Shown in pieces: positions 17,106-58,954 of a stretch of 64,000 nt of DNA. A program made the translations under genes and the position numbers. This DNA is from a virus: positions 1 to 64,000 of IMG/VR virus record IMGVR_UViG_3300037517_002612, one strand, 5' to 3'. The notes beneath the pieces are model-generated. The model did no database searches, was not told the origin of the DNA, and worked only from the letters and a program-made list of their open reading frames with translations. How positions within the stretch are numbered: the first letter of the stretch is position 1; every line of letters begins with the position of its first letter.

Positions 17106-17805
17106 GAAAACCGACGAGCTCCAACTTCCAGGAGTAGGAACACTTGCCCTTGAGACTATCTTCAATGAGGAGCAGCATCAAAGACTCGTGGGTGAGGTTA
17201 TTACGGTCCCAGAGAAATTGACGTTTATTAAAATGGATCACGGTAATATGCCATGGGAAACAGAGATGGAGATTTTAGTAGGAGACGAAGTTATCTTGAG
17301 AAGAACCGATGTTTCAGTTTCTCGGTTTGAGGGAAAGTCTTTCGAATCAGAAGGCCACTTGTACGTGCACGTTCCTTATCACGCTGTTATTCTTTCGAAG
17401 AGAAGGCTTAAATATAGTAACTTTCCTCATGGTGATATATTAGAACTTGACGGAGAAAACTACGTTGTTACAATGCTAAACGGCTACATGCTAGTTCAAC
17501 AGGACGACATAGACTTCCAAACAGAATTCTACATCCCAGGAAACATAAAGAACCCAAAAGCCGAAACCGGAATAATTGCGTTTATAGGAAAACCAAACAC
17601 AGCCTATCACCCTCAATTTATTTCAGCAGGATTTGAATACGGATCACAACTCCCCGACACCCGCTTTGATTTAAAGGTAGGAGATAGAGTAGCCTTCATT
17701 AAACACGCATCCGTAGACTTAGAATACGATATACACAGAACCTTTAACGGACAAGGAAATCACTACGTTAGAATGCAGAGAAATAAGATATTGGCAAAAC
17801 TGTAA
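17065..17805 (+). CDS. Two-domain Cpn10 (GroES)-like protein
   Basis: A 246-aa protein from ATG 17065. Both halves read like co-chaperonin 10. The first half has KPISNHVLIKLTKKTDE, a long loop (LPGVGTLALETIFNEEQ), then VGEVITVP and VGDEVILRR. The second has GYMLVQQDDIDFQTEFYIPG, then ETGIIAFIG, KVGDRVAFI and a closing RMQRNKILA. A fused double GroES would cap a chaperonin ring with fewer chains. The gene lies directly before the terminase and head genes, while GroEL and a normal GroES are 34 kb away, so it may serve head-protein folding. The domain calls are by pattern only and need a profile search. The start is internal to a longer frame but has the typical Cpn10 N-terminus. Confidence 0.6.
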   Translation: MKPISNHVLIKLTKKTDELQLPGVGTLALETIFNEEQHQRLVGEVITVPEKLTFIKMDHGNMPWETEMEILVGDEVILRRTDVSVSRFEGKSFESEGHLYVHVPYHAVILSKRRLKYSNFPHGDILELDGENYVVTMLNGYMLVQQDDIDFQTEFYIPGNIKNPKAETGIIAFIGKPNTAYHPQFISAGFEYGSQLPDTRFDLKVGDRVAFIKHASVDLEYDIHRTFNGQGNHYVRMQRNKILAKL

Positions 17806-25310: not shown

Positions 25311-25344
25311 AAACCCTGGTAATTAATTTTATCAGGGTTTTTTT
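25311..25344 (+). terminator. Terminator after the capsid gene
   Basis: AAACCCTG and CAGGGTTT form the stem (AAACCCTG 25311-25318, CAGGGTTT 25333-25340), followed by a T-run; the A-run before it makes it potentially bidirectional. Confidence 0.8.
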
Positions 25345-35145: not shown

Positions 35146-36996
35146 ATGGAGCTAGGCAGATCAAACGTATATCTTAAACAAGCGGGAACCGGAGCAGCAT
35201 GGATGGGGCCGCAATCTTCATTTGATCCCGTAGCAGCAGCCAAATACGCTGGTGCATTAAAGTTAGCTCAACAAAAACAAAAGCAACAGAAAGTCGATAA
35301 AGAACAATTAGACTTCCTTAATCGCCTAAAGGTTACTGGAGGCAAAGTTCTTGAAGAAGACTTTGACTTCTATAATCAAGTAGAACAGGACGTATATAAC
35401 TGGGCCGCAGGCGAAGTAGCTAAAGCAGATAAAGAAGGTAGAGAACCGAACTTACAGCAATTAACTATACAAGGCCAGAAAAAAGCAGCCAACGCAAACA
35501 ACCTATGGAAAAGAGGAACAGTGCAAAAAGAACGTTTCGATAAATTTCACCAATTAATACTTGGAGATAAATCAGCTAATCCTATTTACGACTCCGAAAC
35601 AATGACAAAAGGCGAAGGAATTTATACGCAGCCATATCGCTTTTTAGAAGACGAGCAGGACGGAGAGTTCCTACAACAAACATGGCTACCAATGTTTGAA
35701 GAAGCTATGCGTGATCCTATCAATCAACAGAACCCAGAGAGAACGATGAAGGAGGTTACGGTTGAGTGGAGAGATGCTTATGGCGACGAATATTTACAGC
35801 CAATATACAACCCTATTTCATTACAGAAAAACTTCAAAGATAACATCAAACCTATCTTAGCAGAATTTAAGAATTACAAGTCGGTACGCGACTCAAGCGG
35901 AAACACTATCACAGAAGAAGACGTTTACACTCTTCCCGATAATATGATTGTTACCGTAGAAATGGAAGACGGATCAACAAAAGAAGTTGAACTTCCAGGG
36001 GTAAGAAGCATGGCCATTGATAACTACGAAACAGATGTAACAGTTCAGCGTTCAGCAAAAACCCTGTTTAAGAATCAAGATAAAAGCGTTAAAGAAGATT
36101 ACATTAATCAGTTTGGTGAAGACGCAGCTAAAGAATGGTTTGCTGATGAGAACATGAACTGGGGCTTACAGGCTACTACAAAGAAAATTAACAACGCAGC
36201 AATACCAAAAACAGGAAACTCATATCGATACGGAAATAAAACATATCCATTTGAAGTAACCCTTGATGAAGGAACTAGAAACTACAATAGATTAGGAGTT
36301 TACAATCAGGGCACAGAAGGTGCTGGTATAGCTTATTCATACGCACAGGTTCCGGTAAGAGGAGTTTCGTTTGGGTCTGATAAAAACAAATACCCAAAAA
36401 TTAAAGTTAACCCACTTAGGATATTCGATCAGGATAGTTACTCGTGGATGAACTCGGATGCAAGTCAAGAATTTGACTTTACGGTTGCCGGAGTTTATGA
36501 AATGCCAGCCACCACAGAGCAGATTAATCTTAAAGACCCAAAGTATGCAGGCATACTTACTTGGGGAGCTAAAACATACGGTAAAAAAGCAAACACAGCC
36601 ATTGCTAAATATATAGCTTCTGGAAACTATATTATACCCGCAGGAACTCCTGTAAGTGGTGATGAAGCCGATATTGTAAACAAAATCAAAAAAGGTTCTG
36701 TTAGAAGCCAAAAGTTTGCAACAGGACAAATATCTGGTTACGATAAAGCCCAAGGAAAGAACTTTGAAATAGCAGGTGCCACAATCCCTTATGAAGAGGT
36801 GCAAGAGCAGGTAGAGCTTGCTACTAACGGTAACTGGAGTGAGGAGATTAACGCACAATACGGTGGTGGTGATGACTGGTGGAAGCCTAAAATTAAAGAA
36901 GGCAATCAGAATACTACGGCACCCAATATAAACATAGACCCATTACTTAATATAGTAAACCAGGTTAATACTGGGGGTAGACAAGTTTTAGAATAA
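35146..36996 (+). CDS. Internal virion protein, large
   Basis: A 616-aa protein with an N-terminal region (GTGAAWMGPQSSFDPVAAAK, then ALKLAQQKQKQQK) often seen in internal or ejected proteins of Bacteroidota phages, a helical middle, and a beta-containing C-terminal half (FEVTLDEGTRNYNRLGVYNQ). No enzymatic motif seen. It precedes the ncRNA and the giant protein, both probably linked to DNA delivery or early control. Confidence 0.6.
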   Translation: MELGRSNVYLKQAGTGAAWMGPQSSFDPVAAAKYAGALKLAQQKQKQQKVDKEQLDFLNRLKVTGGKVLEEDFDFYNQVEQDVYNWAAGEVAKADKEGREPNLQQLTIQGQKKAANANNLWKRGTVQKERFDKFHQLILGDKSANPIYDSETMTKGEGIYTQPYRFLEDEQDGEFLQQTWLPMFEEAMRDPINQQNPERTMKEVTVEWRDAYGDEYLQPIYNPISLQKNFKDNIKPILAEFKNYKSVRDSSGNTITEEDVYTLPDNMIVTVEMEDGSTKEVELPGVRSMAIDNYETDVTVQRSAKTLFKNQDKSVKEDYINQFGEDAAKEWFADENMNWGLQATTKKINNAAIPKTGNSYRYGNKTYPFEVTLDEGTRNYNRLGVYNQGTEGAGIAYSYAQVPVRGVSFGSDKNKYPKIKVNPLRIFDQDSYSWMNSDASQEFDFTVAGVYEMPATTEQINLKDPKYAGILTWGAKTYGKKANTAIAKYIASGNYIIPAGTPVSGDEADIVNKIKKGSVRSQKFATGQISGYDKAQGKNFEIAGATIPYEEVQEQVELATNGNWSEEINAQYGGGDDWWKPKIKEGNQNTTAPNINIDPLLNIVNQVNTGGRQVLE

Positions 36997-37032
36997 TTTT
37001 TAAATTTATTTGCATAATTAATTTACGAGGCA

Positions 37033-37040
37033 TATATTTG
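37033..37040 (+). promoter_or_regulatory. Promoter -7 box TATATTTG for the ncRNA
   Basis: An exact TAnnTTTG box, 36 bases after the preceding stop, with a TTTG-like element (atttatttg) about 22 bases upstream. No coding frame begins downstream for over 400 bases. Confidence 0.65.
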
Positions 37041-37046
37041 TTTCGT

Positions 37047-37374
37047 GAAGTTAACGTTTAACATATATAATATTTACGATAAAGGCCCTGGCGTTAGCTT
37101 CACAACTTCGTTTACAGGGCCTTCGTATTTTAATACAGGATAGAAATAGCCCAAGATGGGTATAAGTCAAATTATCCTTAACAGACCAAACTTGCCTACG
37201 GGCTTGGATCTTGTAACCACTCCCTTTAAGAAGTTAAATGATCTTTAAGACTGGAAAGCTCTATCTATTGATCAGCCTCATTTGATAACCTCGTTATACT
37301 CGACGAATAGTCTGGTCTTCAAAAAGGGCTTGTTTTTATCTTCTTTTTTCAAGCTCTTTTTGAAGACCTTTTTT
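37047..37374 (+). ncRNA. Probable structured non-coding RNA with pseudoknot and strong terminator
   Basis: About 330 nt from the expected start after the TATATTTG box to a terminator. Near the 5' end, GTGAAGTTAACG (37045-37056) can pair with CGTTAGCTTCAC (37092-37103; one G:U), and AAGGCCCTG (37082-37090) pairs perfectly with CAGGGCCTT (37115-37123). The two helices are interleaved, so they form either a pseudoknot or two competing folds. The 3' end has a 19-bp stem, 37314-37332 with 37350-37368 (one G:U), followed by TTTTTT. Smaller hairpins lie between (GCCCA-aga-TGGGT at about 37149; CCAA...GCC/GGC...TTGG at about 37185-37206). No open frame of note is inside. Alternatives: the AAGGCCCTG helix alone is a terminator for the upstream gene, or the region is a long leader of the following gene. 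I know no matching RNA family. Confidence 0.6.
37350..37374 (+). terminator. 3' arm and T-run of the ncRNA terminator
   Basis: Pairs with 37314-37332 to give a 19-bp stem; T-run at 37369-37374. One of the longest terminator stems in the window. Confidence 0.85.
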
Positions 37375-37470: not shown

Positions 37471-37887
37471 ATGAAAAAATTAATTTTTATCTTAATCGCA
37501 GCATTAACCACGTTTAATTGCGTCGCACAACAACTTACCATCACAGATGCCGGAATAGATTATAAGTTTACAAAAGACTCTATTTTCACAACTAATCAGG
37601 CTCCAGAAGTAATATCTTTTATAGATGTAACATATTTAGGAGGAGGCAACTTCTTTTTAAATATTTATACAGCCAAAAACGTTTATGTTTTTAATAATAA
37701 ATCAATGGTCAAAATAGGTATGTATTCTAACGTTCAATTGGTTGTTAATAATTATAAACAAAACGAAGATAATTGGCTTGTTGAAACATGGTTTGATGTT
37801 AAACAGGAATCGTCCAATATTCCTCCATACGACCTTACAACAACACTTACCCCTAAATACGATTATGTGAATGTAATCATAAGGTAA
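37471..37887 (+). CDS. Small secreted protein
   Basis: A 138-aa protein with a clear signal peptide (MKKLIFILIAALTTFNCVAQ). Cleavage is likely after the Ala before the final Gln; a lipoprotein reading using Cys17 is possible but the residues before it do not form a normal lipobox. The mature part is a beta-rich domain (FIDVTYLGGGNFFLNIYTAK; VETWFDVKQESSN). A phage-made periplasmic or surface protein would suit superinfection exclusion or envelope modification. It is between the ncRNA and the giant protein. No TAnnTTTG box seen directly before it. Confidence 0.65.
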   Translation: MKKLIFILIAALTTFNCVAQQLTITDAGIDYKFTKDSIFTTNQAPEVISFIDVTYLGGGNFFLNIYTAKNVYVFNNKSMVKIGMYSNVQLVVNNYKQNEDNWLVETWFDVKQESSNIPPYDLTTTLTPKYDYVNVIIR

Positions 37888-37893
37888 AAACAT

Positions 37894-37901
37894 TATATTT
37901 G
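37894..37901 (+). promoter_or_regulatory. Promoter -7 box TATATTTG for the giant gene
   Basis: An exact TAnnTTTG box 16 bases before ATG 37918. Confidence 0.6.
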
Positions 37902-37917
37902 TGGAAACAAAAATGCT

Positions 37918-40900
37918 ATGGCTCGACCAATTCCAGTTTCAAATAAAAAGGCTCGTCAATGGAATGAGTTCTTATTAGATTTTAACAATGCAGCAGCAGC
38001 AGAACTTCCGCTTGATGCTAATGGAAAACCTAATTATAGCTTATTAGATGACAATAAGCCGTTTGGGACATACTCTGGAGGCCAAGATTTTTACACAAAA
38101 CAGTTTAATAAGTTTAAGCAAAAGAACAATTATACCGCAGCCGATGATGTGTCTGAGGCTGATTTTCCTAAACTACAGCTTTTATTTACAGATATTTACA
38201 ATACCGTTCAGCAGGACCAAACACCATACAAAGCCTTTTTTGACGATAAGCAAGCAAAATTATTATCTGCATTTAATGGTGACCCAAACACGTTTAACCC
38301 TAATAGATCAGCCAGAGATAAAGAAACAGGAGAGGGTTGGATTGGTAGAGACACCAGGTTCTTTTTTATTCCAATGGAAGACGGCCCACTAACTGGGAGT
38401 TCAGGTAAACATATGATACTTCCAGAAAGTTTTGATGAAGGAGACTTAGATCAATCAGGAAATCCTATTTATCAGAAAAATCCAAAGAGAGATATTGGTG
38501 GTACTTTTTATAAGTTTGAAGATGGTGGAATGATTGAAGGTAAAGAGGAAGAGGAAGAGGAAGATGATGACGAAATGGAAGAGTCACCAGAACACGAGGC
38601 TTCTGAAGAAACTCTCGAAAGCAAAAACGGCATAAAAGAAATAGCCGACGATACTTACAAAGTAATTGGTAAGACCCACGAAAAAGGTGGAGTGAAAACA
38701 AAAATTAACGGGAAAAACGTTGAAGTAGAAAAAGGTGAGATTATTGACATGACTACCGAAGACGGCATCGTGCTATCAAATAACCTTCAATTAGCAGAGT
38801 TTGATAATAAAACTCCAGCCAAACTATACGAGGAAATCCTAGCCGAAGAAAAGAAATACGAAGGGGATAACCGTAATTGGGTTAAAAACAAACTAGCCTT
38901 CTTAGCAGAAAAAAAATCTAAGATAATTGCGTTGCAGCAAGAAAGAAACGGAAACCAATCTACCACCATGGCAGAGAATGGAACCATTGTACCAGCCCCA
39001 GAACCAGGAGGAGGAGAAGTGGACCCACCAAAAAAGAAAAGATTATTCTATACTCCAGACAATGTATTATATGAAGTAGCAGAAGACAAAGTAGCCAAAC
39101 ACGCAGACATCTTAAAAAACGCGGTTGAATACACTGAAGAGAAACCAGAAGGATACTCTAACCCAACAAAATTCTACGAGAAGAATGGAGTTGTAGTTGC
39201 CGTTCCACAAGACAAACTATACGCAGCTACAGAATACGTCAAGAGCCAATTTGGAGTTCAGGACTTAACAGACATAAAAGAACTTTACCTCGCAAACACG
39301 GGGCAAAAAAAAAATAAGGATGTACAGTCCATCTATGAAGACACTGATGCCAAGTTCTCAAAAAATACAGGAATCTTTGGAGCAAATACCCAGGTAGACC
39401 TTAATGAAGTTGGAGCCTCAGAACAGGACTTATTTAATTATGATAAGGCCCTGAACGACTACACCTCCTTCATTAAAAAGATACCACGCACCGAAGGCCA
39501 ACCAACAGCCTACAATGAAATCCTAGAAACAGGATACCTAGATAAGCTTTATCCAAACGACATTGACCTGTTAAAAGACGCGTCTCGTAAAATGAGGGAC
39601 GAGGATAATGAATTAGTCGGTAAAAAGTTCATTAATGACCTTCAGCTTGAAAAAGACGACATCATTAAAGAATATAAAATACAAACATCTGCTACCGGTT
39701 GGATGTATGATATCGAAGGCAATATCACCAAAACAAAAGAGTTTAGAGATCACCTTGACCGCAAGTTAAATGCGTCCACCATAGAAATAGACGGAAAGAA
39801 AATAGACTTCCAATCAATGCCAGGAAGCCAAAAAGAGGAGATAAGAAACTACGTAATAGGAAACTACAATACAGTACAGGACCTAAAGAAATCACAGGAC
39901 CATATAGCGTGGCTAACCGACCCAAACCCAACAGGAGATAAAGAGGCTGACGACATTAAATTAAAACAACAGCAAGCCATCTTCAATAAGACCGGAGTAG
40001 ACATTACTACCCTACACGATGAAGGATACTGGATGAAGATGATTGACGGTTTTAAGAAGAAGGCCGACTCAATTAATCAGGAATATGCCAACCTTGCGTC
40101 AAAACTTCCATACACAATTAAGGAAGACCTTGCCCCACTTAAAACGCAGTATGAATTTGATGACAACCAACTCACCCAAACAGGACTACAGGAACTTGAA
40201 TTACTTAAAAAAGATTTACAGTTTCAATTAGATAACGGACAAATTGATGAGGAATCAGCGAATAAAAAATTAGATGAAGCATTTACTGGACTTGAAGTAA
40301 AAAGAACAGAGATGTTCAATCAATACAATAGGGACTTAAACCAAAAAGCACAGCTCAAAATACAGGCAGCTACCGAAACCCTAAAGCTTAAATTTGAAGC
40401 CGAGATTACCGAAGGCTTAAAAGAGTTTGGGCTAGATGGAACCGACGTTATTAAAAACGCAGAAAACTACAACAAATTATTAATGTGGGAGTTTGGTAAC
40501 ATCCAAACAGACCAAATGGTTAGACTTCAAAACGAAGCAACCAGACTTGTTGACTATAAAGGAGACTGGGAACAGATTAAAAACAACCTTAATAGAGGAA
40601 CCCTTCAAATGTTCGAAGGACTTGGAGGAGGAATAAAGTGGCTCGGTGGTTACGAAATGGGTAACATTATGACCGATGCTATGGACGAATACAACGCAAC
40701 AAACCCACAACAGCAAGTACAATGGGACGGCATCGAATCACTTATGAACAAAGATTGGTGGATAGAAAGAGGTGTTACAACCATCCCATCTACCCTGATG
40801 TTTGTATTACCAGGAATAGGAATATCCGGGGCCGCAGGTAAAACCGCAGCAGCCATTGGGCTCGAAGGACTAGAGGCTAGTTTATTTCAAGGTTTTGCAG

Positions 40901-43900
40901 GTGCACTTGCAACCAGACCACTAGAATCATTTATTGAGGCCGGTACCCAGTTCAATACAGACCTTGAGAACGGAATGAATGTGGACGAAGCTAGTGATAG
41001 GGCCGCAAGCGTATTTACTGATAACCTTAAACTTATATTCACCGATGGCTTACAATTAGGATTAGCCTTCACCAAGTTTGGTAAACTATCTGGAATAAAA
41101 GCCGGATTAATTAAAATGCCAATCGAAGCCATAATGGAAGGATCAGAGGAGGTATATCAAGAACTTGCAGTTGAAAAGCTTGATAACCCATACGCAACAT
41201 TCCTAAGTTATATAGCATCACCGGCAGGACAAGAAACATTTGCGCTTGGAGCTTTAATGGCTACCCCATACGCTTTACCAGACATCGTATCAATATCATC
41301 CGGAAAAACCAATCAACAACAGTTTGGATTATTAATGGATATGATAGGCGACCCAAACAACATGGACGTTCGCTATTCCCAAATATTAAACCAAGCAGAG
41401 GTACAAGTAGCTAGGGGCTCAATGACACAAACAGAGTTTAAGCAGCTACAGGCCAAGGCAGAATTTGTTCTATCTAAAAATAGGGATATTCCAATAGACC
41501 TTGCACCAGAAGTAAGAAAAGGAGTACTCTATAAACTTGCGGATATAGCCGACGCAAATAACGTGATAAATGCGTCTCAAGACCCAACCATACAGAACAC
41601 CTATAAAGACAAAATAAAGGAACTTGAAAAGGGGGTTAAGGAATTAATAGCCGGCAAAGAGCCAATGTACTTTATCAACAACGCAATGTACACGAAAGAG
41701 GAGTTTAACGAAGTCCTCTCAAACGACGTTGTTATGCAAAGCCTTGCAGACCAAAACACCCCAATCGAAATCTTCAATGACGATACAATGAGTACTGCCT
41801 TAGAAGAAAGAATGGCAGAATTTAGAGTCGACCAGGAAAAGGTATTTAATGCAGTACAAAACTACGTTCCGGAAATACAAACAGAAGAAGTGGCCTTGAC
41901 TACAGAGGAAGATGTAACTAAAGCTAGCGTTTTAGAAGATACCAAAGAAAGTAGTGTTGGTGTAGGGGGAGATGTGGAGTTTACCGCAAAAGCGTTAGAG
42001 GGGGTAATAAAAGATAAGGTAAAAACACCAAATGATATTCCTAATACTATGGGAACTCATTTACAAAACCTTACTGATGGCTCTTGGCTCATTAGAGATG
42101 GAGATAAATCAAAAGAATGGGTTGACTTAGTTAATAATGGTATAAAAGAAATTGAAAACATATTTAGCGTAATCCCATTTTCAGAAAAAACCAAAAGCAT
42201 ATTAAAAGAAATAAAAGAAAAAGTAGCAAACGATAATTATGATATTTCAAAAGAAGTGTCAAATTTATCAGAAGCCACAAAAAAAGAATTTTATAGAGGT
42301 GGAGAAGGGTGGGGTGTAAAGGAAATTTCCGAAGCCTACCATAAAGCAAAAGCCGATGGCTCAAATCCTGAACTTGTAAAAGCAGTAGAACAATCCCTCA
42401 AAAAAGAACCAACTGCCTTAACACCCACTAAGACAAAAGAAGCAAGTACTAAAACACAACAAACAAACGTTACTAATCAAAATAAAACCATTAACAATGA
42501 AAATATACAAGAGAAACAGCTCGATGAGAAATCAACCGTCGCTATTCCAAAAACCCAAACCACAACTATCCAAGGAGGACCTGAAGAAATTGCACGCAAC
42601 ACTGCAAAAAGAGAAGAAATAAAACAATCTCTTAAAGATCTAAGAGACCAAGGGTTATTAGTTACAGCCGATAAGTCCTTACTAGCTAAAGCAAAGAAAC
42701 TTGTAGGCAAATCATCTGCTCCAGTTAAAATGACCGATGCCGAGATAGATGCTCAAATAAGCCTACTAGACTCCATGGCAAAAGTCTGGAAAGATACTAC
42801 CGGCAAAGACAACTTCTATGATAAGTTTATCGCAGACGTAAAGAAAGGTGACATAACTGCATTAAATAAAATGGGTGGTGCACTATTCCAAGAGGCAGAG
42901 AGCACACGAAAGCCTACATCAAGAGTTACACTAGGTGTATTCAATGAGCCACAATTTGTAAAGATGGAGGGACAATCCGTTAACCCACAATCCATCTCCG
43001 ACTTTATTAAAGGTAAGGGAAAGCAAATCGAAAAGGATATTATTAATCAAGTTCTATCCTATGATAAATACAAAGGGCAAAAAAGAATTCCATTTGACGA
43101 ATTTAAAAATGACGTAGAGCTTCAGTTAATGAAACTCGAAAAAATTAAATCATCATCATACGCTACTTATGGAAAAGATAATCTTGGCTACAATGAAGAT
43201 TATGGAAATGCTGAAACCATTATATTAAACACACCTTTAGATCATGGAGAAACTGGTCACTTTAGTGGAGACTTTATCTCTAGTCAAGTTGAAAATAAAA
43301 ACTGGGAAGTAAAACAGCTAGGCGACACAAACACGTGGGCTGCAGTTGACAAAGATATGCCAGCAGGAACAACTGCGCAGGATATACAAAACTACGTAGG
43401 AACAGCAGGATCAAAAGCAGAAGTTGAACGATGGGTAAACCAACGAAATCAAGAGAAAGATATTAACAAAGGACTATTCGGACATCTTAGGGCTTGGTTT
43501 AATAAGTCTACAAAAGTATTTACTCTAGCAGAACAGCAAAGCGACGTTTATCAGAAACACAAAGCCTCTGAATTATTTGCGGAGAAAATACCGCAAGACG
43601 AGATTGATGAGTATATGAACAGAGAAATCTGGGCTCCCATGCACGCAAAATATTTACAAGAACTTAAAGAGCATACTGGATTTACTACTGTAGTAAATAA
43701 AGAAGATAGAATGGTTTATATTTATGACAATAAAGGAAACCAAATTGGTTCAGCAGCGTTTCGGGATAATCCGTCTCCTGGATATAAAGTAGGAGAGGTC
43801 GAAGAAGCTCAATTATTTACTAGCACTGTACAAGGAATTTATGAGTATAGTGACTTTATCAAAGACTTTAAAGATAGGTACGACGAGGAAAGAAATAGCT

Positions 43901-46900
43901 TAAAACACAAAGAACAACAGTACATAAGCAAAAGAGTAGAAGAAGCTAAAGCAAGCGGGAAAATAGATCTTATTCAACAACAGTTTATAGCATCACAAAA
44001 AGTTCACGAATTGAGACTTTTTAGAGAAGCAATAAATTACGCAGCAGAATTAGGGGCCGAAACATTAAGGTTCCCTACACCATATACACTTGCCGTTATT
44101 GAAGGATATGTTGATAAGTCAGGAGAAGGAAACGCACCTTATGATATAATAGATGGAGATTCTGATGGGTTAGATGTTGGAGATATTATTGATTATGGAG
44201 GTGAGAAAATGCGTGTTGTAGAAAGTAATTCATATGATTTTAAAGCTATTTCTTTTGATGAAAGTTGGGAGGTGAATGTTGATGATTATATCTACGAGGA
44301 AGTTAATAATAGGTGGAGTGAAATAGAATATGAAGCAAAGCGTCATTTTGATAATCTATCCGCTATTACAAAAGAAGAACTTGAGAGTTATAGCGCAGAT
44401 GAGTGGATGGCTTACCATGCTAAAGATTTATTGGAGGCAGAATTTGAAGAATTAGAAGACGGTGAGACCGTAAGCTGGGATGATATTGAAAATAAATTAA
44501 GAGAAGAAATACAAGACAATTATAGCAGGATGGATTATGATGATCTATTTGGTGGCTATGGCGGTGTGTGGGATTTAGGCTATGGCAGAGTTGTTGTAAG
44601 CGAGTCTAGGGGATACGAAACATTTAATCAACCAGACGGATATAGCGGAGACTCCTCAGAGGAGGGGTTTGAAAATGATCTAAGTCGAGAACAGCAAACA
44701 GTAGTAAATAAGTATAAGGAGCTTGGAAAGCTAATTGAAAAAATGCGTCCAGACGCTACTATAGTAGAGGACGACAACGGCATGAAGTGGATTGAAACCA
44801 AGATCACGGACGAAGATGCTAGTAATCCAATAATAGCATTCCAAAAAGAAGGAGGTAAAGCCAAAGCTGCAGTAGATTTTATTAATGATAATAAGGCTAC
44901 GATTTATATTTTTGATGGAGCCGATATATCTTCTTTAGCTCACGAAATGACAGGGCATTTAGGTAGAAGATTTTTAGAAAGTCTAGCAAAAGAAAGTCCT
45001 GCATTCGCCAAAGAATATAACACTGTTAAGAAATGGGCCGGAGTGAAGGGAGATAAGTGGAGCACTAGGGCAGAAGAAAAATTTGCCAGAGCCTTTGAAA
45101 GATACCTTAGAGAAGGTATCTCACCAACAAAAGAACTACAAAGCGTATTCTCTAAGCTGAAGGAATGGTTGAGCAGTATTTATAAATCAATAAAAGGGAG
45201 TTCTATAGACGTTGAACTTACAGATGAAATAAGGGAAGTGTTTGATAGTATCTTGGGTGGAAGAAAGGATAAAGTAGAAGCAACCCCCACACCAAAGAAG
45301 ACGGGCAAAGCAGTAGTCAAAACGCAAATAGGTCCCGCTTCGAAGAAAACTACGTCCACCAAAGAAATACCAGTAAAGGGAGGATACAAATGGACTCAAT
45401 CACCAGAAGGTAAATGGACCATGGTAGATAAGGAAGGAAACCCTCACAAATTAGGAGACCGTTCTATGAACAACTACGAGAGACAACTCGTAGATAAACT
45501 AATCGAGAACGACGAATTTGATACTAAACAGAATTCTATTAAAAGCGACGTTGCTGATCCGGAAATAATAAGCGAAATAGAGCTATCGACCAATCCGAAT
45601 GAACTATTAAAAACAATAAACAATGCTAAAGAGTATATGGAGACTCTTGAAACATCACCAGAGGGAGTAGCGTTAGAAATGCTACAGGCTGGAGTCAAAA
45701 GAGGATCATTTGTAGAATATGGAGACGAAAATTTAATATCAGAAAGTATTGTTAGAACCTATGACTTAAAAAAGGGATCTGGTACTACGCTGGATAATAT
45801 ATCTCAATACCTTGAAGGAAAGGGAGTTATAATGAGTGAAAGTGACCTTGTAGATTTAATGACTACATATCCTGGAGGTATTAAGCAGTTCCTAAATGGG
45901 GAAGTTCCTGCCCTAAAAGCGGCAGAAGGCAGATTGTCTGAATTGGGTATTAATTATGCGTATGCGTTAAAAAAACTATATCCGAAATCATTTAGAACCA
46001 CACAGAAAGGTTCGTCTACCCAAGACTTCCCAGACGTACCATTCAGCAAAGGGAACCAAAAGACAGTAGGAAAGCAGTTTGGAAAAGAAATGCAAAAGCT
46101 GTTAAACGCATTAAGAGCCGGAGCACCAAATATAAAAGTAAACTTCGTTACCGATGAGTTCCTATTAGGGCTCAAGATGGAGGCTAATAAGTATTTAAAC
46201 ATAACAAACAATAGCGGCATCCCAATTGGAGCATACAACCCAAAGACAGGAGAAATCTATTACAATGAAAAATCACTAGATCCAGGAACAGCAATAGAGG
46301 AGTTTGCCCATATGTGGTTGCACGTATTAAAAGAAGTTAAGTCGGACATTTACAATAAGGCAACAGAATTAATACAAGCAACACAATTCTTTAGAGATAT
46401 TGTTAACAGCGAAGAGTATGGACAGTCACCATTATTCATCCAGCGTAACGAGGCTATCGCAAAAGCAATGCGAGCCAAGACCGAGGATATGGTAAACCAA
46501 ACCGGATTAAAGAAAGTGATTGGGCAGATCATGGACCTTATAAAGGAATTACTTTCTAAGTTGGGAATAAATGCGTCTACCCTAAATTTAAACAGCACCT
46601 TAGAGGACATAATCAACAAAGGATCAAAAGAACTTATAGCCAATAGACCATGGACATTAACAGACTCCATAAACCTAATGGGCAAGAACGCTAGAGCTGA
46701 AGAGATAATATCCATAAACTACCAATTATCAGAAGACGCTAAGTTACCGTCCGGAGATCCAAACAAGTTCACCAAAGAAGAGCTAAAAGAAATCAACGAT
46801 AGATTAGCAGAGCTAACCGATAAAGGAGCAAATAAAGACGTTAATGTAACTAATGCCAGTGTAATACGTCTAATGAAGACCCCTACTAAAGTAAGCGAGT

Positions 46901-49900
46901 GGGCCAGAAAAAACCTCACCATCACAAAGGGAGGTAACCCACAAGCCCTACAAAGCAAAGAAGGGATAATCGGTAAAAGTAAAAGGCTTGAGGAACAGTT
47001 GAAAAGAGAGTACCAAAAAACTCTTACCAAGAAGTTTATGCCATATATAAAGAAGATGAAACCGCAGGAAATGACGAACTTCTTTAATGACGTAAACTTC
47101 TATCTTACAAACCCAGATATTGTATCATTAACCGGAATGCCGGATGATATTATACAGTCAATTATAGGATTGAGACAACTTATCAATAAAACAACCAACG
47201 CATTCTTGGGAGTAATGAACCCAGATACATATATTCCTCACATCGGAACAGACCTAAACCTGTACCTTACAAATAACTTTGAAGTATTAAGAAGGTCCGA
47301 GTCTGAAATATCTGCGTATCAAGTACAGGAATCAAAAGAAATTCTTGACCTAAACGATACACTTCAGTCATTAAACTTAGATCAAAAATTTTCAACATTA
47401 AAAGACAAAGCCGCAAAGCTTAAAGCAGAACTAAAGGATCTTGACAAATACGTTGAAGACCAAGAAGTAAAAGACAGTATAAAAGACCTTCTTAACAGTG
47501 AGCAGGTGATGGAATCTGGTAAGCTATATAACTACGTACAATACCTTATAAAAGAGAAGTACAGCGCAAAAAGAGAGATAGCAAACCAAGAGCTTTACAG
47601 TAACAGGATAACCGAGATTGACTACAATAAAACAGATCAAGGCTATGATATTACAGTAGTTCACGCAGACGGCAGAACCCAACAGATGATATTGCAGCCC
47701 AACGAAGTTAAGATACTCTTCAAAGAAAACAGAGCAGCGACCATCTTTAAAACGGAGTCCGGTAATATTGAAGTAGATCTTGAAGAAAACTTCGTCCTCC
47801 AAAATAATGCCCTATACGAAAAACTCCAAAAGGATAAAGAAAGATACGTCACTAGAGCCTTCTATAAATACGAAACCCCTGAGTGGTGGAAAGCTAACTG
47901 GGAAACATACCTTAACGAGCATGTAGATGAACAAGGAAGAGTAATGTATGACGTTGCCGCTAATTGGGTAAAGAAAGAACTTGAAACCTCTAGAGTACGT
48001 CAAATGACCATCCAAAAAGGAGGGGCTAAAGGTAAAGACGGCTACTACACTTATACTGCTACCAACGCAAAAGGAGTACAATCAGAAGGAGTATTAACCG
48101 AGTCCCAATTTGAATTCTTAAACGAAGCCAACGGAGGCTTTATTAAGCCTACAGACTTCGAGAAAATAAAGAAAGACCTTAAAAGTGGAGTGGAGCAAAC
48201 CTTCGGTGGAGAACTTGACGATCAGAAAATGTTTACAGGATGGGGCAAAGAACAGTTCATTATACCGTTTAGCGTTTCAGATAACGTCGTAAACCAAACC
48301 ATGAAGAACCTGGCTACCGGATCAAACGTTCAAACAAACTTCTTTCAAATGGGTGCCGACATTGATAAGTTCAAAGGCGACATTTTAAAAAGAAAACAGG
48401 AGATCCCAGAAGAACTTAAATACATCTACGGTGAGATAACAGACCCAAGCCTTACTGTATTTAAAACCTTAATGGCTCAAACGCTTGCTATCAATAGTTA
48501 TAATACATTTAACACCATAGCAACAGAGAACGGATTATTTACGGACAACCCAACCGGAATGATTAGTATGTATGCCATGACTCAGGAAGAGTATGAAAGA
48601 TATGAAGGGTTAAGACCGTCAATCAGAGAGGAAATGATACCGGTAGATGGAACCAAACTATTTATGGCAGGTGCTAAGAATAACGGAACCATATATCTTA
48701 CTAAAGAGGCGCATGATATATTCTTCCCAGAGCCAGCTAAAATAAATAACAGTATAACAAGACTGTATTTTATGTTGGCCTCCATAATTAAATTTACCTA
48801 TACGAACCCAAATATTGCGTCTCGTAGTAGGAACGTACTTTCCAACCAAATAGCTTATTACAGATCAGGTGCATTAAACTTCAATCCACTTAAACCTGGA
48901 GCAAGCTATAAGCATATGTTGGACGCAGTTAATGTTATCTACTCAGACTTTACAACCAAAGAACAGGCCGTATCTGGATTTATGGATATACCTACCACCG
49001 TTCAGAGAGCATTAGGATTAGTAAGACAAAAAGCCAAAGGCATGACACAAGCCGAGCTTATTGAACTTAAAAACGAGGTAATTGAACTTGGACTTGACGA
49101 AGGATCATTAGACTCAGCAGATTTCGAAAGGTTACAGGAAGGCAGTATCACAGAAATGCTTGCCGGCTACAAAGAAACAAACACTAAAAACTGGATAAAG
49201 AAACGTGAGGAGAAATTAAAAGCCGGAGTAAAAAGAGTAACAAAAGGCTACGGAGCAGCAGATACAATTCTACGTACAGCCATATACTTCAGAGAGAAGG
49301 AAATGCTAATGAAGGCCAATGAAGAGTATAAGAAAATGGGTAAACAAGAAATACCCATAGCCCAACTTAAAAAAATGGCAGCAGAGAAAGCTATACGCAT
49401 CACCCCCGTTTATTCGCGTCTTCCAGAAGTCGCCAGAACCCTTGGAACAATTCCTGGAGTTGGAACTTTCTTTAAATGGTCCGCTTCTCAGTTTAGAGTA
49501 ACCTACAATCAATTTGTAGACGCTACCCAGGAAATGCAAAGCGACAATCAAGTTATTCGAAGAAACGGATGGAGGAAGTTTGGATCATACGCAGGTATGG
49601 CTATGGTAGGTCCAGTTATCGCTGCGTTAATGAAAATGAAATACGACATCGACGACGATGAGGAAGAGGCAGTCAGAACCGTTGATCCATCATGGTTAGA
49701 GAATTCATTATGGATACCGCTTGATAAGCCAATCATTAACGAGAATGGAAACGTAGAAATACGTCGTATAAACTTCTCATTCGTTGACCCATCATCTATG
49801 TGGCACCAAGGAACAATAGCATTCCTACGATCAGATAACGCGGTAGAAGGAACTATAAATGGACTTGGACAATTAGCAGCACCTTTCGTTGGATCCGACA

Positions 49901-50472
49901 TCCTATTAAATACGTTATCAGATATAAATAGAGGAGAGAACGATTACGGAGCTCCATTGTTTAAAGCGTATGATAGCAAGAACGAAAAGATAATGAAGGG
50001 CACCGGATATTTCCTTGAGAAAATGGTAGCACCAGAAATCAAGTCAGTAAAAGAACTTGGAAAGGATTGGAGAACAGAGGTTCAAAACTGGGCATTCGGA
50101 GTTAAGATAACACAGAAAGAGGTAAATAAAACCTTCAACGCTAGGATGAGAAAGATTGAGGAAGTATTTAACAGCCTTGAGTATGATCGCAAAAAGGAAA
50201 GACTTAGTGAAAATGATTATATTTCTAAGAGCCAAGATAACTTCTTAAATGCTAAAAAACTTATAAACTCAATGATAGAACTTGGTGCAAGCCCAGTAAA
50301 TATTTATAACGAGTTAGACTTCTTAAACATAGGAGACGAAAAAGAGGGAGGCTTTACAAAATATTCTTTAGGGTTTGACCGTTTACAAACAGAAGGAGTT
50401 GGTAAAGAGAAGATAGCAACAGAAGTAACCTATGATCCAAACAGACAATGGCAACCAAAACTACTGAAGTAA
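37918..50472 (+). CDS. Giant (4184-aa) polyvalent virion protein with metallopeptidase domain
   Basis: One open frame of 12.5 kb. Seen in order: an N-terminal domain (1-200); FEDGG, a run of Glu/Asp and GKTHEKGGVKTKINGK (about 200-265), a motif common in Bacteroidota phage virion proteins; a second Pro/Lys-rich linker (about 340-375); long helical stretches; hydrophobic helices (about 945-1010 and 1035-1130) that could cross a membrane; a large-polyvalent-protein domain (DHGETGHFSGDF near 1775, FGHLRAWFNKSTKVF near 1853, AINYAAELGAETLRFPTPYT near 2040); a zincin peptidase with SLAHEMTGHLGRRF (HEMTGH at 2342-2347) and EKFARAFERYLREG; a second zincin-like part with EEFAHMWLH near 2793, where HExxH would be expected; and C-terminal modules (GEITDPSLTVFKTLM; YTNPNIASRSRNVLSNQIAY; FFKWSASQFRVTYNQFVDAT) known from DarB-like ejected proteins. 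It is most likely packaged in the head, injected with DNA and protective early on. Confidence 0.8.
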   Translation: MARPIPVSNKKARQWNEFLLDFNNAAAAELPLDANGKPNYSLLDDNKPFGTYSGGQDFYTKQFNKFKQKNNYTAADDVSEADFPKLQLLFTDIYNTVQQDQTPYKAFFDDKQAKLLSAFNGDPNTFNPNRSARDKETGEGWIGRDTRFFFIPMEDGPLTGSSGKHMILPESFDEGDLDQSGNPIYQKNPKRDIGGTFYKFEDGGMIEGKEEEEEEDDDEMEESPEHEASEETLESKNGIKEIADDTYKVIGKTHEKGGVKTKINGKNVEVEKGEIIDMTTEDGIVLSNNLQLAEFDNKTPAKLYEEILAEEKKYEGDNRNWVKNKLAFLAEKKSKIIALQQERNGNQSTTMAENGTIVPAPEPGGGEVDPPKKKRLFYTPDNVLYEVAEDKVAKHADILKNAVEYTEEKPEGYSNPTKFYEKNGVVVAVPQDKLYAATEYVKSQFGVQDLTDIKELYLANTGQKKNKDVQSIYEDTDAKFSKNTGIFGANTQVDLNEVGASEQDLFNYDKALNDYTSFIKKIPRTEGQPTAYNEILETGYLDKLYPNDIDLLKDASRKMRDEDNELVGKKFINDLQLEKDDIIKEYKIQTSATGWMYDIEGNITKTKEFRDHLDRKLNASTIEIDGKKIDFQSMPGSQKEEIRNYVIGNYNTVQDLKKSQDHIAWLTDPNPTGDKEADDIKLKQQQAIFNKTGVDITTLHDEGYWMKMIDGFKKKADSINQEYANLASKLPYTIKEDLAPLKTQYEFDDNQLTQTGLQELELLKKDLQFQLDNGQIDEESANKKLDEAFTGLEVKRTEMFNQYNRDLNQKAQLKIQAATETLKLKFEAEITEGLKEFGLDGTDVIKNAENYNKLLMWEFGNIQTDQMVRLQNEATRLVDYKGDWEQIKNNLNRGTLQMFEGLGGGIKWLGGYEMGNIMTDAMDEYNATNPQQQVQWDGIESLMNKDWWIERGVTTIPSTLMFVLPGIGISGAAGKTAAAIGLEGLEASLFQGFAGALATRPLESFIEAGTQFNTDLENGMNVDEASDRAASVFTDNLKLIFTDGLQLGLAFTKFGKLSGIKAGLIKMPIEAIMEGSEEVYQELAVEKLDNPYATFLSYIASPAGQETFALGALMATPYALPDIVSISSGKTNQQQFGLLMDMIGDPNNMDVRYSQILNQAEVQVARGSMTQTEFKQLQAKAEFVLSKNRDIPIDLAPEVRKGVLYKLADIADANNVINASQDPTIQNTYKDKIKELEKGVKELIAGKEPMYFINNAMYTKEEFNEVLSNDVVMQSLADQNTPIEIFNDDTMSTALEERMAEFRVDQEKVFNAVQNYVPEIQTEEVALTTEEDVTKASVLEDTKESSVGVGGDVEFTAKALEGVIKDKVKTPNDIPNTMGTHLQNLTDGSWLIRDGDKSKEWVDLVNNGIKEIENIFSVIPFSEKTKSILKEIKEKVANDNYDISKEVSNLSEATKKEFYRGGEGWGVKEISEAYHKAKADGSNPELVKAVEQSLKKEPTALTPTKTKEASTKTQQTNVTNQNKTINNENIQEKQLDEKSTVAIPKTQTTTIQGGPEEIARNTAKREEIKQSLKDLRDQGLLVTADKSLLAKAKKLVGKSSAPVKMTDAEIDAQISLLDSMAKVWKDTTGKDNFYDKFIADVKKGDITALNKMGGALFQEAESTRKPTSRVTLGVFNEPQFVKMEGQSVNPQSISDFIKGKGKQIEKDIINQVLSYDKYKGQKRIPFDEFKNDVELQLMKLEKIKSSSYATYGKDNLGYNEDYGNAETIILNTPLDHGETGHFSGDFISSQVENKNWEVKQLGDTNTWAAVDKDMPAGTTAQDIQNYVGTAGSKAEVERWVNQRNQEKDINKGLFGHLRAWFNKSTKVFTLAEQQSDVYQKHKASELFAEKIPQDEIDEYMNREIWAPMHAKYLQELKEHTGFTTVVNKEDRMVYIYDNKGNQIGSAAFRDNPSPGYKVGEVEEAQLFTSTVQGIYEYSDFIKDFKDRYDEERNSLKHKEQQYISKRVEEAKASGKIDLIQQQFIASQKVHELRLFREAINYAAELGAETLRFPTPYTLAVIEGYVDKSGEGNAPYDIIDGDSDGLDVGDIIDYGGEKMRVVESNSYDFKAISFDESWEVNVDDYIYEEVNNRWSEIEYEAKRHFDNLSAITKEELESYSADEWMAYHAKDLLEAEFEELEDGETVSWDDIENKLREEIQDNYSRMDYDDLFGGYGGVWDLGYGRVVVSESRGYETFNQPDGYSGDSSEEGFENDLSREQQTVVNKYKELGKLIEKMRPDATIVEDDNGMKWIETKITDEDASNPIIAFQKEGGKAKAAVDFINDNKATIYIFDGADISSLAHEMTGHLGRRFLESLAKESPAFAKEYNTVKKWAGVKGDKWSTRAEEKFARAFERYLREGISPTKELQSVFSKLKEWLSSIYKSIKGSSIDVELTDEIREVFDSILGGRKDKVEATPTPKKTGKAVVKTQIGPASKKTTSTKEIPVKGGYKWTQSPEGKWTMVDKEGNPHKLGDRSMNNYERQLVDKLIENDEFDTKQNSIKSDVADPEIISEIELSTNPNELLKTINNAKEYMETLETSPEGVALEMLQAGVKRGSFVEYGDENLISESIVRTYDLKKGSGTTLDNISQYLEGKGVIMSESDLVDLMTTYPGGIKQFLNGEVPALKAAEGRLSELGINYAYALKKLYPKSFRTTQKGSSTQDFPDVPFSKGNQKTVGKQFGKEMQKLLNALRAGAPNIKVNFVTDEFLLGLKMEANKYLNITNNSGIPIGAYNPKTGEIYYNEKSLDPGTAIEEFAHMWLHVLKEVKSDIYNKATELIQATQFFRDIVNSEEYGQSPLFIQRNEAIAKAMRAKTEDMVNQTGLKKVIGQIMDLIKELLSKLGINASTLNLNSTLEDIINKGSKELIANRPWTLTDSINLMGKNARAEEIISINYQLSEDAKLPSGDPNKFTKEELKEINDRLAELTDKGANKDVNVTNASVIRLMKTPTKVSEWARKNLTITKGGNPQALQSKEGIIGKSKRLEEQLKREYQKTLTKKFMPYIKKMKPQEMTNFFNDVNFYLTNPDIVSLTGMPDDIIQSIIGLRQLINKTTNAFLGVMNPDTYIPHIGTDLNLYLTNNFEVLRRSESEISAYQVQESKEILDLNDTLQSLNLDQKFSTLKDKAAKLKAELKDLDKYVEDQEVKDSIKDLLNSEQVMESGKLYNYVQYLIKEKYSAKREIANQELYSNRITEIDYNKTDQGYDITVVHADGRTQQMILQPNEVKILFKENRAATIFKTESGNIEVDLEENFVLQNNALYEKLQKDKERYVTRAFYKYETPEWWKANWETYLNEHVDEQGRVMYDVAANWVKKELETSRVRQMTIQKGGAKGKDGYYTYTATNAKGVQSEGVLTESQFEFLNEANGGFIKPTDFEKIKKDLKSGVEQTFGGELDDQKMFTGWGKEQFIIPFSVSDNVVNQTMKNLATGSNVQTNFFQMGADIDKFKGDILKRKQEIPEELKYIYGEITDPSLTVFKTLMAQTLAINSYNTFNTIATENGLFTDNPTGMISMYAMTQEEYERYEGLRPSIREEMIPVDGTKLFMAGAKNNGTIYLTKEAHDIFFPEPAKINNSITRLYFMLASIIKFTYTNPNIASRSRNVLSNQIAYYRSGALNFNPLKPGASYKHMLDAVNVIYSDFTTKEQAVSGFMDIPTTVQRALGLVRQKAKGMTQAELIELKNEVIELGLDEGSLDSADFERLQEGSITEMLAGYKETNTKNWIKKREEKLKAGVKRVTKGYGAADTILRTAIYFREKEMLMKANEEYKKMGKQEIPIAQLKKMAAEKAIRITPVYSRLPEVARTLGTIPGVGTFFKWSASQFRVTYNQFVDATQEMQSDNQVIRRNGWRKFGSYAGMAMVGPVIAALMKMKYDIDDDEEEAVRTVDPSWLENSLWIPLDKPIINENGNVEIRRINFSFVDPSSMWHQGTIAFLRSDNAVEGTINGLGQLAAPFVGSDILLNTLSDINRGENDYGAPLFKAYDSKNEKIMKGTGYFLEKMVAPEIKSVKELGKDWRTEVQNWAFGVKITQKEVNKTFNARMRKIEEVFNSLEYDRKKERLSENDYISKSQDNFLNAKKLINSMIELGASPVNIYNELDFLNIGDEKEGGFTKYSLGFDRLQTEGVGKEKIATEVTYDPNRQWQPKLLK

Positions 50473-51679: not shown

Positions 51680-51699
51680 ATTAATTGTTTATAAAGGGA

Positions 51700-51728
51700 A
51701 ACCCGATCAGTAATGGTCGGGTTTTTTT
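51700..51728 (+). terminator. Terminator AACCCGA...TCGGGTT-T run
   Basis: A 7-bp stem with 10-base loop followed by T's, between the decoration-like gene and GroEL. Confidence 0.8.
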
Positions 51729-51798
51729 ATTGCAAAATATTTGCTATAATTGCACAATAATCGGTAAAAATATCGTTATAGCTTAAAACAAATTCAAA

Positions 51799-53391
51799 AT
51801 GATAAAAGACATACACTTCGGGGAAGAAGGAAGAAAAGAAGTCCTAAATGGCATAGACATCGTTGTAAACGCAGTTAAAACATCACTTGGGGCCGCAGGA
51901 AAAACAACCCTCATCGGATATGGATATGATGGACTTGTAGCAACGAAAGACGGAGTATCAATTGCTCGTGCTATAATGGTAGCAAACCCACTAACAAACA
52001 TGGGATGCTCATTAGCAAAAGAGGTATCCGGAAAAACAGTAGATGACTCTGGTGACGGAACAACTACTGCAGCCATCCTATTTCAAGCAATTGTTCATGG
52101 CGGTGTAGAAGCAATCAACAAAGGAGCCAACTCTGTTGAGCTTAAAAAAGGCATTCAAAAAGCCGTTGAAATGATAGTCGCCCATTTAAAAACGTTATCC
52201 AAACCAATTGACAACGTTGAAACTCTTATCCAAATCGCATCCATCTCAGCAAACAATGACGAAACAATAGGCAAGCTAATAGCCGAAGCCGTAGATTCAG
52301 TTGGAAAAGACGGACTTGTTATCGTTGAGGATAGCAAGAACCACGAAACCTTTGTGGATACCATAGAAGGTATGAAGTTTGACAGAGGTTTTGCGTCTCC
52401 AACATACATCACAAACCGAGAAAAAAATCGTTGTGAATTAGAAAACCCATTAATTCTTGTTACCGATAAGAAATTATCATTGGTAAAAGAGGTTCTTGAT
52501 TTTATCCAACACGTAAGCTCAAAACACCCAGGCAAACCACTCTTGATTATTTGTGATAACATCGAAGGTGAAGCACAGTCTTTCTTTGTTGAGAACAAAT
52601 CGAGAGGAGTATTAAACGTATGCGTGGTTAAGGCACCTGAGTTTGGAACAAACCGGACCAGAACCCTTGAGGATATTGCAATCCTTGTTGGAGCAAACTT
52701 TATCTCTGATGAGAAAGGCATGCTTGTAAATAAAGCTCAAGACAAAGACCTTGGTAGAGCCGAAAAGGTTATTGTAGATAAAGACTCTACCCTAATTGTA
52801 GGGGGTAAAGGAAACTCTTTATCGGTTGATGAAAGATGTAACTCCATAAGAGTTGCTATCGAGGAGTCTAAAAACGAAACCGAAACAACCCAGTTAAAAA
52901 CAAGACTTGCTAAAATGCAAGGTAAAATCGCTGTATTAAAGGTTGGAGCAATTACCCCTACCGAGGCAAAAGAAAAGAAGGACCGTATTGACGATGCCCT
53001 TTGCGCAACACGAGCAGCCAATGAAGAAGGCTTCGTTGTTGGTGGTGGAATGGCATTAATGGAGTGCTCTGACATTGATTTATTAGTCATACCAGCAGGA
53101 GATCAATATGAGGGAGCTTGTATTGTTCGTGAAGCATTAAGAGCACCATTTAAGCAACTATTAACAAATGCCGGCATCGAACCAGCACCAGTCTTAAAAG
53201 AATTAGCAGCCACAGAATATGGAGTTGGATTCAATGCTAAAACAGAAAAGGTTGAAAACCTATTCGACTCTGGAGTAATCGACCCTACAAAAGTAGTTAG
53301 ATGCGCCCTTGAAAATGCAGCCTCTATTGCTGAAATCTTCCTTACTACCGAATGTGTTATTAGTGATCCAACACCTAAAGACTTAAAGTAA
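51799..53391 (+). CDS. groEL: Chaperonin GroEL (Cpn60), phage-encoded
   Basis: A 530-aa group I chaperonin (bacterial GroEL is about 545). ATPase residues are kept: TKDGVSIAR with Asp51, GDGTTTAAIL at about 85-94, and KKDRIDDALCATRAANEEGF near 395. The apical domain is complete (RGFASPTYITN; GKPLLIICDNIEGEAQSFF; RGVLNVCVVKAPEFG). The C-terminus ends TTECVISDPTPKDLK, without the GGM-repeat tail of bacterial GroEL, so the cavity floor differs. It forms an operon with groES (stop and start share base 53391). Phages with their own GroEL are known but uncommon; it probably folds capsid or other large virion proteins. A weak -7 box (aatatttg, about 51736) lies after the upstream terminator. Confidence 0.95.
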   Translation: MIKDIHFGEEGRKEVLNGIDIVVNAVKTSLGAAGKTTLIGYGYDGLVATKDGVSIARAIMVANPLTNMGCSLAKEVSGKTVDDSGDGTTTAAILFQAIVHGGVEAINKGANSVELKKGIQKAVEMIVAHLKTLSKPIDNVETLIQIASISANNDETIGKLIAEAVDSVGKDGLVIVEDSKNHETFVDTIEGMKFDRGFASPTYITNREKNRCELENPLILVTDKKLSLVKEVLDFIQHVSSKHPGKPLLIICDNIEGEAQSFFVENKSRGVLNVCVVKAPEFGTNRTRTLEDIAILVGANFISDEKGMLVNKAQDKDLGRAEKVIVDKDSTLIVGGKGNSLSVDERCNSIRVAIEESKNETETTQLKTRLAKMQGKIAVLKVGAITPTEAKEKKDRIDDALCATRAANEEGFVVGGGMALMECSDIDLLVIPAGDQYEGACIVREALRAPFKQLLTNAGIEPAPVLKELAATEYGVGFNAKTEKVENLFDSGVIDPTKVVRCALENAASIAEIFLTTECVISDPTPKDLK

Positions 53392-53765
53392 TGGGAATAC
53401 AAGAATTCTTAGAAAGCAAAGGTGCCTTGTTCCATATGGATGAGAAAAGCATGGCTAAACTATACCCTCTTATTGAAGAGTGGAAAACAATGCCATCAGG
53501 AAAAATTCAACCATTATACGACAAAGTAATGGTTGAGCTAATCGAAGGAGACTTAATGGTAGGTAATATTCACCTACCACAGTCCTCCCAAGAGAAGCCA
53601 ATAAGAGGCTTAGTAATTGCAGTAGGTCCAGGTAAAGACGGAGAGCCAATGAGTACAAAGGTTGGTGACATTGTTCTATTTGGGAAACACGCAGGTACAG
53701 AGGTTGATATTGATAACAAGACGTATAAGTTAATGAGGGAAATAGAGATATTCGCTATCGTATGA
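53391..53765 (+). CDS. groES: Co-chaperonin GroES (Cpn10) with N-terminal extension
   Basis: A 124-aa protein. The Cpn10 domain begins near residue 40 (QPLYDKVMVELIEGD), followed by a mobile loop with GNIHLPQSS, equivalent to the GroEL-binding loop, then RGLVIAVGPGKDG, KVGDIVLFGKHAGTEVD, and a closing MREIEIFAIV. About 38 extra residues at the N-terminus (MGIQEFLESKGALFHMDEKS...) are not part of usual GroES. It is coupled to groEL in front and to the methyltransferase gene behind (ATGA overlap). Confidence 0.88.
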   Translation: MGIQEFLESKGALFHMDEKSMAKLYPLIEEWKTMPSGKIQPLYDKVMVELIEGDLMVGNIHLPQSSQEKPIRGLVIAVGPGKDGEPMSTKVGDIVLFGKHAGTEVDIDNKTYKLMREIEIFAIV

Positions 53766-58887: not shown

Positions 58888-58919
58888 TACAACTGTAGTC
58901 TTTTTAGCTTTTTTTACTT

Positions 58920-58954
58920 CCCCGTACAATAATATGTACGGGGATTCGTTTTTT
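58920..58954 (+). terminator. Terminator CCCCGTACA...TGTACGGGG-T run
   Basis: A perfect 9-bp stem with 6-base loop (58920-58943) followed by ATTCGTTTTTT. With the promoter just upstream it would bound a transcript of about 60 nt. Confidence 0.8.

Follow-up and report, generated by a model that had tools for sequence, protein, structure and literature searches.

The put RNAs of phage HK022 are cis-acting antitermination leaders made of tandem hairpins, and the leader of the lambda late promoter pR' yields the '6S' RNA, which ends at tR'. The preQ1-I, SAM-II and fluoride riboswitches carry a compact pseudoknot close to the leader's 5' end and can precede a terminator. To our knowledge few structured RNAs have been described from Bacteroidetes phages, and little is known of the control of their late genes. 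Here we describe an RNA region in a 64,000-nt stretch of viral DNA (the window, positions 1 to 64,000 of IMGVR_UViG_3300037517_002612, of which the full record is 69.2 kb), which on comparative grounds is a genuine phage RNA family, apparently undescribed, starting with an H-type pseudoknot, since the same RNA is present in a relative with matching paired changes and in two further copies.

Each of these systems resembles the window RNA in part. Like the put RNAs, it is structured, is predicted to open phage transcripts and stands before terminators and genes of several kinds, but it begins with an H-type pseudoknot from +1 where put has tandem hairpins. With the lambda pR' leader it shares the succession of promoter, short stable RNA (predicted here), terminator and then late or structural genes; however, no Q-like protein or binding site was recognised, no sequence relation to lambda was shown, and the downstream structural gene has its own promoter box. 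The compact pseudoknot near the leader 5' end recalls the three riboswitches, but the window RNA matches none of them in Rfam at gathering score and its stems are of 12 and 8-9 pairs; moreover, whereas the pseudoknot and terminator of a transcription-control riboswitch share bases and exclude each other, here they do not overlap and all are kept. Scanning the window against Rfam release 15 gave no family at the gathering threshold, in agreement with the original prediction, which had recognised no known family, and permissive scans of the window RNA, its homologue in the relative and the second copy there gave sub-threshold matches only. The DUF3800-I RNA (RF02969) was one of these, a full-length but weak match to 37005-37131 that scored 19.2 bits (gathering score 44.2; E 1.2-1.9), needs bases upstream of the predicted start and is not listed for the homologue or the second copy; miRNA-like matches were to the terminator hairpin and far below threshold. 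ARAGORN found no tRNA or tmRNA genes in the window, and a tRNA/tmRNA, an Rfam riboswitch and a coding origin were each considered and found unsupported.

The source virus appears to be a phage of flavobacteria, its terminase and structural proteins being distant kin of those of Cellulophaga phi38:1, Calle, the Flavobacterium elemo phages and Tenacibaculum Gundel_1. The RNA and the small open-reading frame behind it sit between the gp100-like and gp101-like genes (Table 1), which in the other relatives examined are mostly within ~70 nt of each other, some overlapping, with no such element between them. With its own promoter and terminator, and inserted between genes that are adjacent in relatives, the unit has the make-up of a moron-like cassette. 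As the original prediction had it, an exact promoter box is followed by ~330 nt in which the ORF list calls no gene, the 5' part of the RNA holds two strong interleaved helices and its 3' end a 19-bp terminator stem with T6, and a secreted protein and a 4184-aa virion protein come next.

Table 1. Features of the RNA locus and its neighbours in window coordinates; L202 is the homologous locus in the relative genome and copy 2 a second copy in that genome
Feature	Position	Strand	Remarks
616-aa gene	35146-36996		5' neighbour of the RNA; placed like gp100 of Cellulophaga phage phi38:1
-33 element TTTG	37009-37012	+	20 nt 5' of the -7 box
RNA region	37033-37374	+	between the 616-aa gene and the 138-aa ORF
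-7 element TATATTTG	37033-37040	+	Bacteroidetes housekeeping sigma factor type
Predicted transcription start	37045	+	4 nt past the -7 box; pairing of helix A begins here
Helix A 5' arm GTGAAGTTAACG	37045-37056	+	12/12 pairs kept in L202
Helix A loop stretch CATATATAATATT, 13 nt	37062-37074	+	invariant between window and L202, not kept in copy 2
Helix B 5' arm AAGGCCCTG	37082-37090	+	pseudoknot stem 2; 8 core pairs kept in L202
Helix A 3' arm CGTTAGCTTCAC	37092-37103	+	12 pairs with the 5' arm, one G-U
Helix B 3' arm CAGGGCCTT	37115-37123	+	9 pairs with the 5' arm
U-rich stretch CGTATTTTAATA	directly 3' of helix B 3' arm	+	counterpart in other copies
Core hairpin P2	37158-37177	+	GGGUA 37158-37162 / UAUCC 37173-37177; 5/5 pairs in three sequences, one double change
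Core hairpin P3	37183-37211	+	AGACCAA / UUGG-A-UCU, inner GCC(UACG)GGC
Small hairpin UGAU/GUUA	37283-37296	+	CGAU/AUCG in L202; 4/4 pairs, one double change; two sequences only
Intrinsic terminator stem + T6	37314-37374	+	predicted RNA 3' end; 37314-37332 pairs with 37350-37368, 19 pairs, one G-U, then T6
138-aa ORF	37471-37887	+	signal-peptide-like start; gene read if the terminator is passed
Separate TATATTTG box	37894-37901	+	just 5' of the 4184-aa gene
4184-aa gene	37918-50472	+	placed like structural protein gp101

Several other features of this virus were observed. At 51799-53765 and 16990-17805 it codes for a GroEL (PHROG E 1e-145), a Cpn10/GroES (Pfam E 3e-21) and, adjoining the terminase, another protein of 271 aa whose C-terminus is GroES-like. 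A mostly intergenic stretch before groEL (51698-51793) is 76.5% identical to the relative and is possibly a conserved regulatory leader. Bases 1-30 of IMGVR_UViG_3300037517_002612 recur near the record end (68908 onward) without an exact terminal repeat, which may be either imperfect terminal redundancy or a repeated tail-fibre segment. Two IMG/VR contigs from other samples (L200 and L201) are near-identical relatives of the window virus, with a capsid gene 99% identical in amino acids; the promoter word of the RNA was absent from the stretches of them that were examined.

The relative, IMGVR_UViG_3300002460_000024 (locus L202), was reached with a 1176-aa structural protein as query and is ~60% identical in that protein. 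At the same gene junction its DNA is 74.7% identical to the window RNA over 383 nt (E 2.6e-60), a higher identity than in any other alignable block of more than 200 nt, none of which reaches 74%; the average over all alignable blocks of the two genomes is 66.8%. The genes that follow the RNA in L202 are again a small secreted-type ORF and gp101; the former, of 134 aa, is the positional counterpart of the 138-aa ORF of the window, with weak, mainly N-terminal similarity. A 2.2 kb segment of mostly opposite-strand ORFs (L202:16442-18578) separates gp100 from the RNA there, so the RNA belongs with the downstream side. One of these opposite-strand ORFs has a weak PHROG endonuclease match.

The two helices of the 5' domain are kept between the phages with compensatory changes. 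The four arms are interleaved in the order A 5', B 5', A 3', B 3'. A linker of 1 nt joins the B 5' arm to the A 3' arm, and one of 11 nt joins the latter to the last arm; both have the same length in L202, whilst the loop between the two 5' arms varies (26 vs. 32 nt in the window/L202 comparison). Three double compensatory changes fall in helix A and two in the core of helix B, all 40 cells of the two helices being paired across the two sequences, and sliding the partner columns by 1-3 positions abolishes the pairing in both. The check proposed with the original prediction, that the arms be conserved and co-vary in relatives, thereby came out in favour of the prediction for A and B, and its central claim of an unannotated structured RNA with pseudoknot and terminator is supported by the comparative evidence. 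No other interleaved pair on either strand of the window is as strong, and no equal was found in 2.47 Mb of related-phage strands or in 60 dinucleotide shuffles of the window. A rough pseudoknot estimate for the 5' domain is -29 kcal/mol, against -18 for the best nested fold. A pseudoknot or a switch between two folds had been proposed; the arms of the two helices share no bases, which makes A and B compatible as an H-type pseudoknot, and alternative folds need not be invoked. The RNA shows what is expected of an H-type pseudoknot RNA, two interleaved helices that are both supported by covariation and joined by linkers of compatible geometry.

The remainder of the RNA is structured as well. 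Folding energy over the whole stretch gives z = -5.05, and this comes from the 5' domain and the terminator, because the middle alone has z = 0.26; the middle is nevertheless not structureless, as two hairpins (P2 and P3) are backed by three homologous sequences. A bulged A at 37208 in P3 is common to the window, L202 and copy 2, and letters in and around P3 are conserved. All 19 pairs of the terminator stem are kept in L202, 18 of them with unchanged letters, and the T-run is weaker there (TTTCC). A conserved AAGCTCT (37249-37262) repeats part of the terminator 3' arm (37350-37368) and could in principle pair with the 5' arm, a match that at such length may be due to chance.

Further copies are present in the genome of the relative. 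A covariance model of the full RNA built from the window and L202 sequences only (R2) matched a second copy at L326:6376-6600 with 56.8 bits (E about 1e-12; the E-values of these models are rough because the calibration was short). In this copy helix A is reduced to 11 pairs by the loss of both partners of one pair, and seven pairs of helix B are kept; with copy 2 added, helix A shows six pairs with double changes and one paired deletion. Across the window, L202 and copy 2, 97% of cells pair and 11 of 35 pairs are doubly changed, a result matched by none of 500 shuffles. The model-fitted alignment A7 was used for copy 2, the arms of which MAFFT misplaced, and it leans towards helix A and the inner P3 pairs and not towards helix B, P2 and the outer P3 pairs, which lie outside that model. 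The two full copies in the relative adjoin unrelated genes. Copy 3 (L326:8850-8975, relative genome G396) was met as a weak match of model R3 (L326:8866-9069, 26 bits, E 0.001-0.003); it consists of TATATTTG, four bases, a helix of 16-17 pairs from the predicted +1 and an interleaved second helix of 13 pairs, which none of 200 shuffles reached. Its last bases, GGGGGCTTTTAATTTT, are immediately followed by the ATG of an ORF that by inspection reads as an HNH-type endonuclease. Copy 3 is thus the 5' domain without the core, a pseudoknot-only leader, and the full RNA is carried by two genomes only, one with an extra full copy.

A host-type -7 promoter box is present in all four copies, and the promoter word TATATTTGTTTCGTGAA is identical between the window and L202; the TTG of the -33 element is also found in L202 (19 nt spacing) and copy 2 (20 nt). 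Transcripts of F. johnsoniae start 4 or 5 nt past the TAHHTTTG element (PMC6847099). At the 4-nt spacing, taken from F. johnsoniae, all four copies would be transcribed from the first base of helix A. Among ~1,330 boxes from the two genomes and related loci, a helix of at least 10 pairs with ordinary G-U content beginning exactly 4 nt on was found only at the relative's three copies, which the window copy joins once G-U pairs are treated more loosely.

Leaders of similar layout occur in cultivated phages. The elemoF and elemoA loci (L345 and L344, about 945-1085) are ~75% identical in this stretch, with almost identical flanks and differing arm sequences, and each forms an interleaved helix pair (0 of 200 shuffles in each case), followed by a T-run, a small ORF and a replication protein in a replication operon. 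In Gundel_1 (L004:16785-16909) promoter-proximal interleaved helices and a U-rich tract precede an antirepressor gene; the shuffle control covered the two elemo loci. At the lower threshold of this survey (-25 kcal/mol) boxes scored 21 vs. 11-20 in displaced controls, so only the top few boxes stand out. Like the window RNA, these leaders have a TANNTTTG promoter, a helix A, an interleaved helix B and a U-rich stretch, with a start codon soon after; unlike it, their helix A lies ~12-14 nt past the box and has 7-8 pairs, and P2 and P3 are lacking. The best model E against the window RNA is about 0.01-0.03, so that the likeness is one of layout without proven homology.

Searches beyond these phages brought up no homologue among the Bacteroidia genomes, phages and plasmids covered. 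Against 395 Bacteroidia genomes, DNA queries and models R1 and R3 gave only short matches, mostly to the T-rich terminator, or none, and among ~50 relative records searched with R1, R2 and R3 only the L202 genome rose above noise. The RNA had no distant blastn match in phages or plasmids, the pattern of the AAGGCCCTG hairpin occurred in 104 contigs in which similarity to the RNA was limited to chance-level short matches, and a viral scan with GACTGGAAAGCTCT had no third genome among the matches listed. Queries from the N-terminal third of the 4184-aa protein, gp100 and the 138-aa protein found no relatives among viral contigs, and in genomes the only match to the 138-aa protein was to a signal peptide, in a Prevotella. 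A limited full-text search of open papers brought up no description of such an RNA.

Several functions had been put forward for this RNA; a regulatory role is the best supported of them, and nothing was found that points to a packaging RNA or a ribozyme, a host-directed sRNA being a possible alternative. From the sequence comparisons we prefer, at roughly even probability, a leader that acts in cis and carries its own terminator to an independent RNA acting in trans. Given the computed pseudoknot, conserved promoter, core, terminator and gene order, the host RNA polymerase would start at G37045 from the housekeeping-type promoter, the first 79 nt would fold during synthesis into the pseudoknot, and the two-hairpin core and the 19-pair terminator would follow, with most transcripts ending at ~37374 as a ~330-nt RNA. 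The leader would then set the amount of transcription that reads through the terminator into the secreted-protein gene, the giant structural gene further on having a promoter box to itself. Readthrough may be governed by a protein, a ligand, host state or the polymerase itself. The leader is favoured because no recognisable promoter lies between terminator and next gene in any of the three copies with a terminator: no TANNTTTG occurs between the terminator and the 138-aa ORF of the window, and the corresponding stretch before the next ORF lacks a promoter box in L202 and copy 2 too. In L202 the opposite-strand ORFs lie directly upstream, which leaves the 134-aa gene no recognisable promoter other than that of the RNA. 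Start codons likewise follow closely in copy 3, the elemo phages and Gundel_1, as is usual for leaders. However, conservation of the RNA far exceeds that of the small gene that follows, the T-run of the terminator is poor in L202, and no conserved antiterminator was identified that would compete with the 19-pair stem, helices A and B and this stem being free of mutual overlap. In a tightly packed genome, moreover, any RNA gene will have a promoterless gene downstream.

A free-standing, trans-acting phage RNA of ~330 nt is a close rival, since the RNA outconserves the gene and shows no conserved alternative pairing that would open the terminator, and we consider it plausible, though less likely than not. 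The pseudoknot would shield the 5' end from decay, P2 and P3 would bind a protein or RNA, and the terminator would end the gene. Its own promoter and strong terminator suit this, as do conservation over the whole length above nearly all coding blocks, the two full copies beside unrelated genes in one genome and the conserved letters in and around P3; the terminator stem, kept almost letter for letter, fits a trans-acting RNA as well. Against it, copy 3 and the elemo and Gundel examples closely precede start codons in the manner of leaders, and no target was found in the phage's own genome, where the longest complementarities are 11-13 nt and AT-rich or of low complexity.

An ordinary transcription boundary, in which helix B and the 19-pair stem end the gp100 operon, the promoter serves the next operon and the rest is spacer, is improbable. 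Hairpin terminators do follow other genes of the phage, for example the capsid gene (~25312-25340) and at 58919-58944, and the original prediction itself cautioned that helix B alone could be a terminator for the gene before it. However, an identity of 75% is not expected of spacer when the mean of the coding blocks is 67%, all pairs of helix A, itself no terminator, are kept with compensatory changes, and the other relatives examined have gp100 and gp101 close together without such an element. That caution is unlikely to be the full story, as gp100 is not adjacent to the RNA in L202 but 2.2 kb away, and helix B is nevertheless kept with compensatory changes. Least probable, and very doubtful, is a small leaderless ORF in the 5' domain (GTG at 37045, 37045-37140) conserved for its protein: it is open in both phages, as 32 aa in the window and 34 aa in L202, with the two stops aligning, and has a weak coding signal (protein score P = 0.0022 by column shuffles), but its codon changes are 4 synonymous vs. 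14 non-synonymous, its codon usage is at the 2.5th percentile of real genes, conservation runs 230 nt beyond the stop, the changes in the helices are compensatory, a stop breaks the frame of a second ORF (37156, 30 aa) in L202, and F. johnsoniae transcripts are mostly leadered (PMC6847099).

Returning to the favoured cis-acting leader, a wider and rather unlikely proposal is that it belongs to a plug-in leader class of flavobacterial phages, in which a +1 pseudoknot before many genes would act on the polymerase or the message 5' end, independently of the gene, by antitermination or by protection against decay. The genes served would be the HNH endonuclease and the secreted protein, with related layouts before replication and antirepressor genes. 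With its covariation support, the exact register of promoter and fold and more than one copy in one phage, the family is directly testable, and the similar leaders of the cultivated elemo phages and Gundel_1 offer laboratory systems. If it does act on polymerase or message decay, the RNA would provide a portable control element for flavobacteria.
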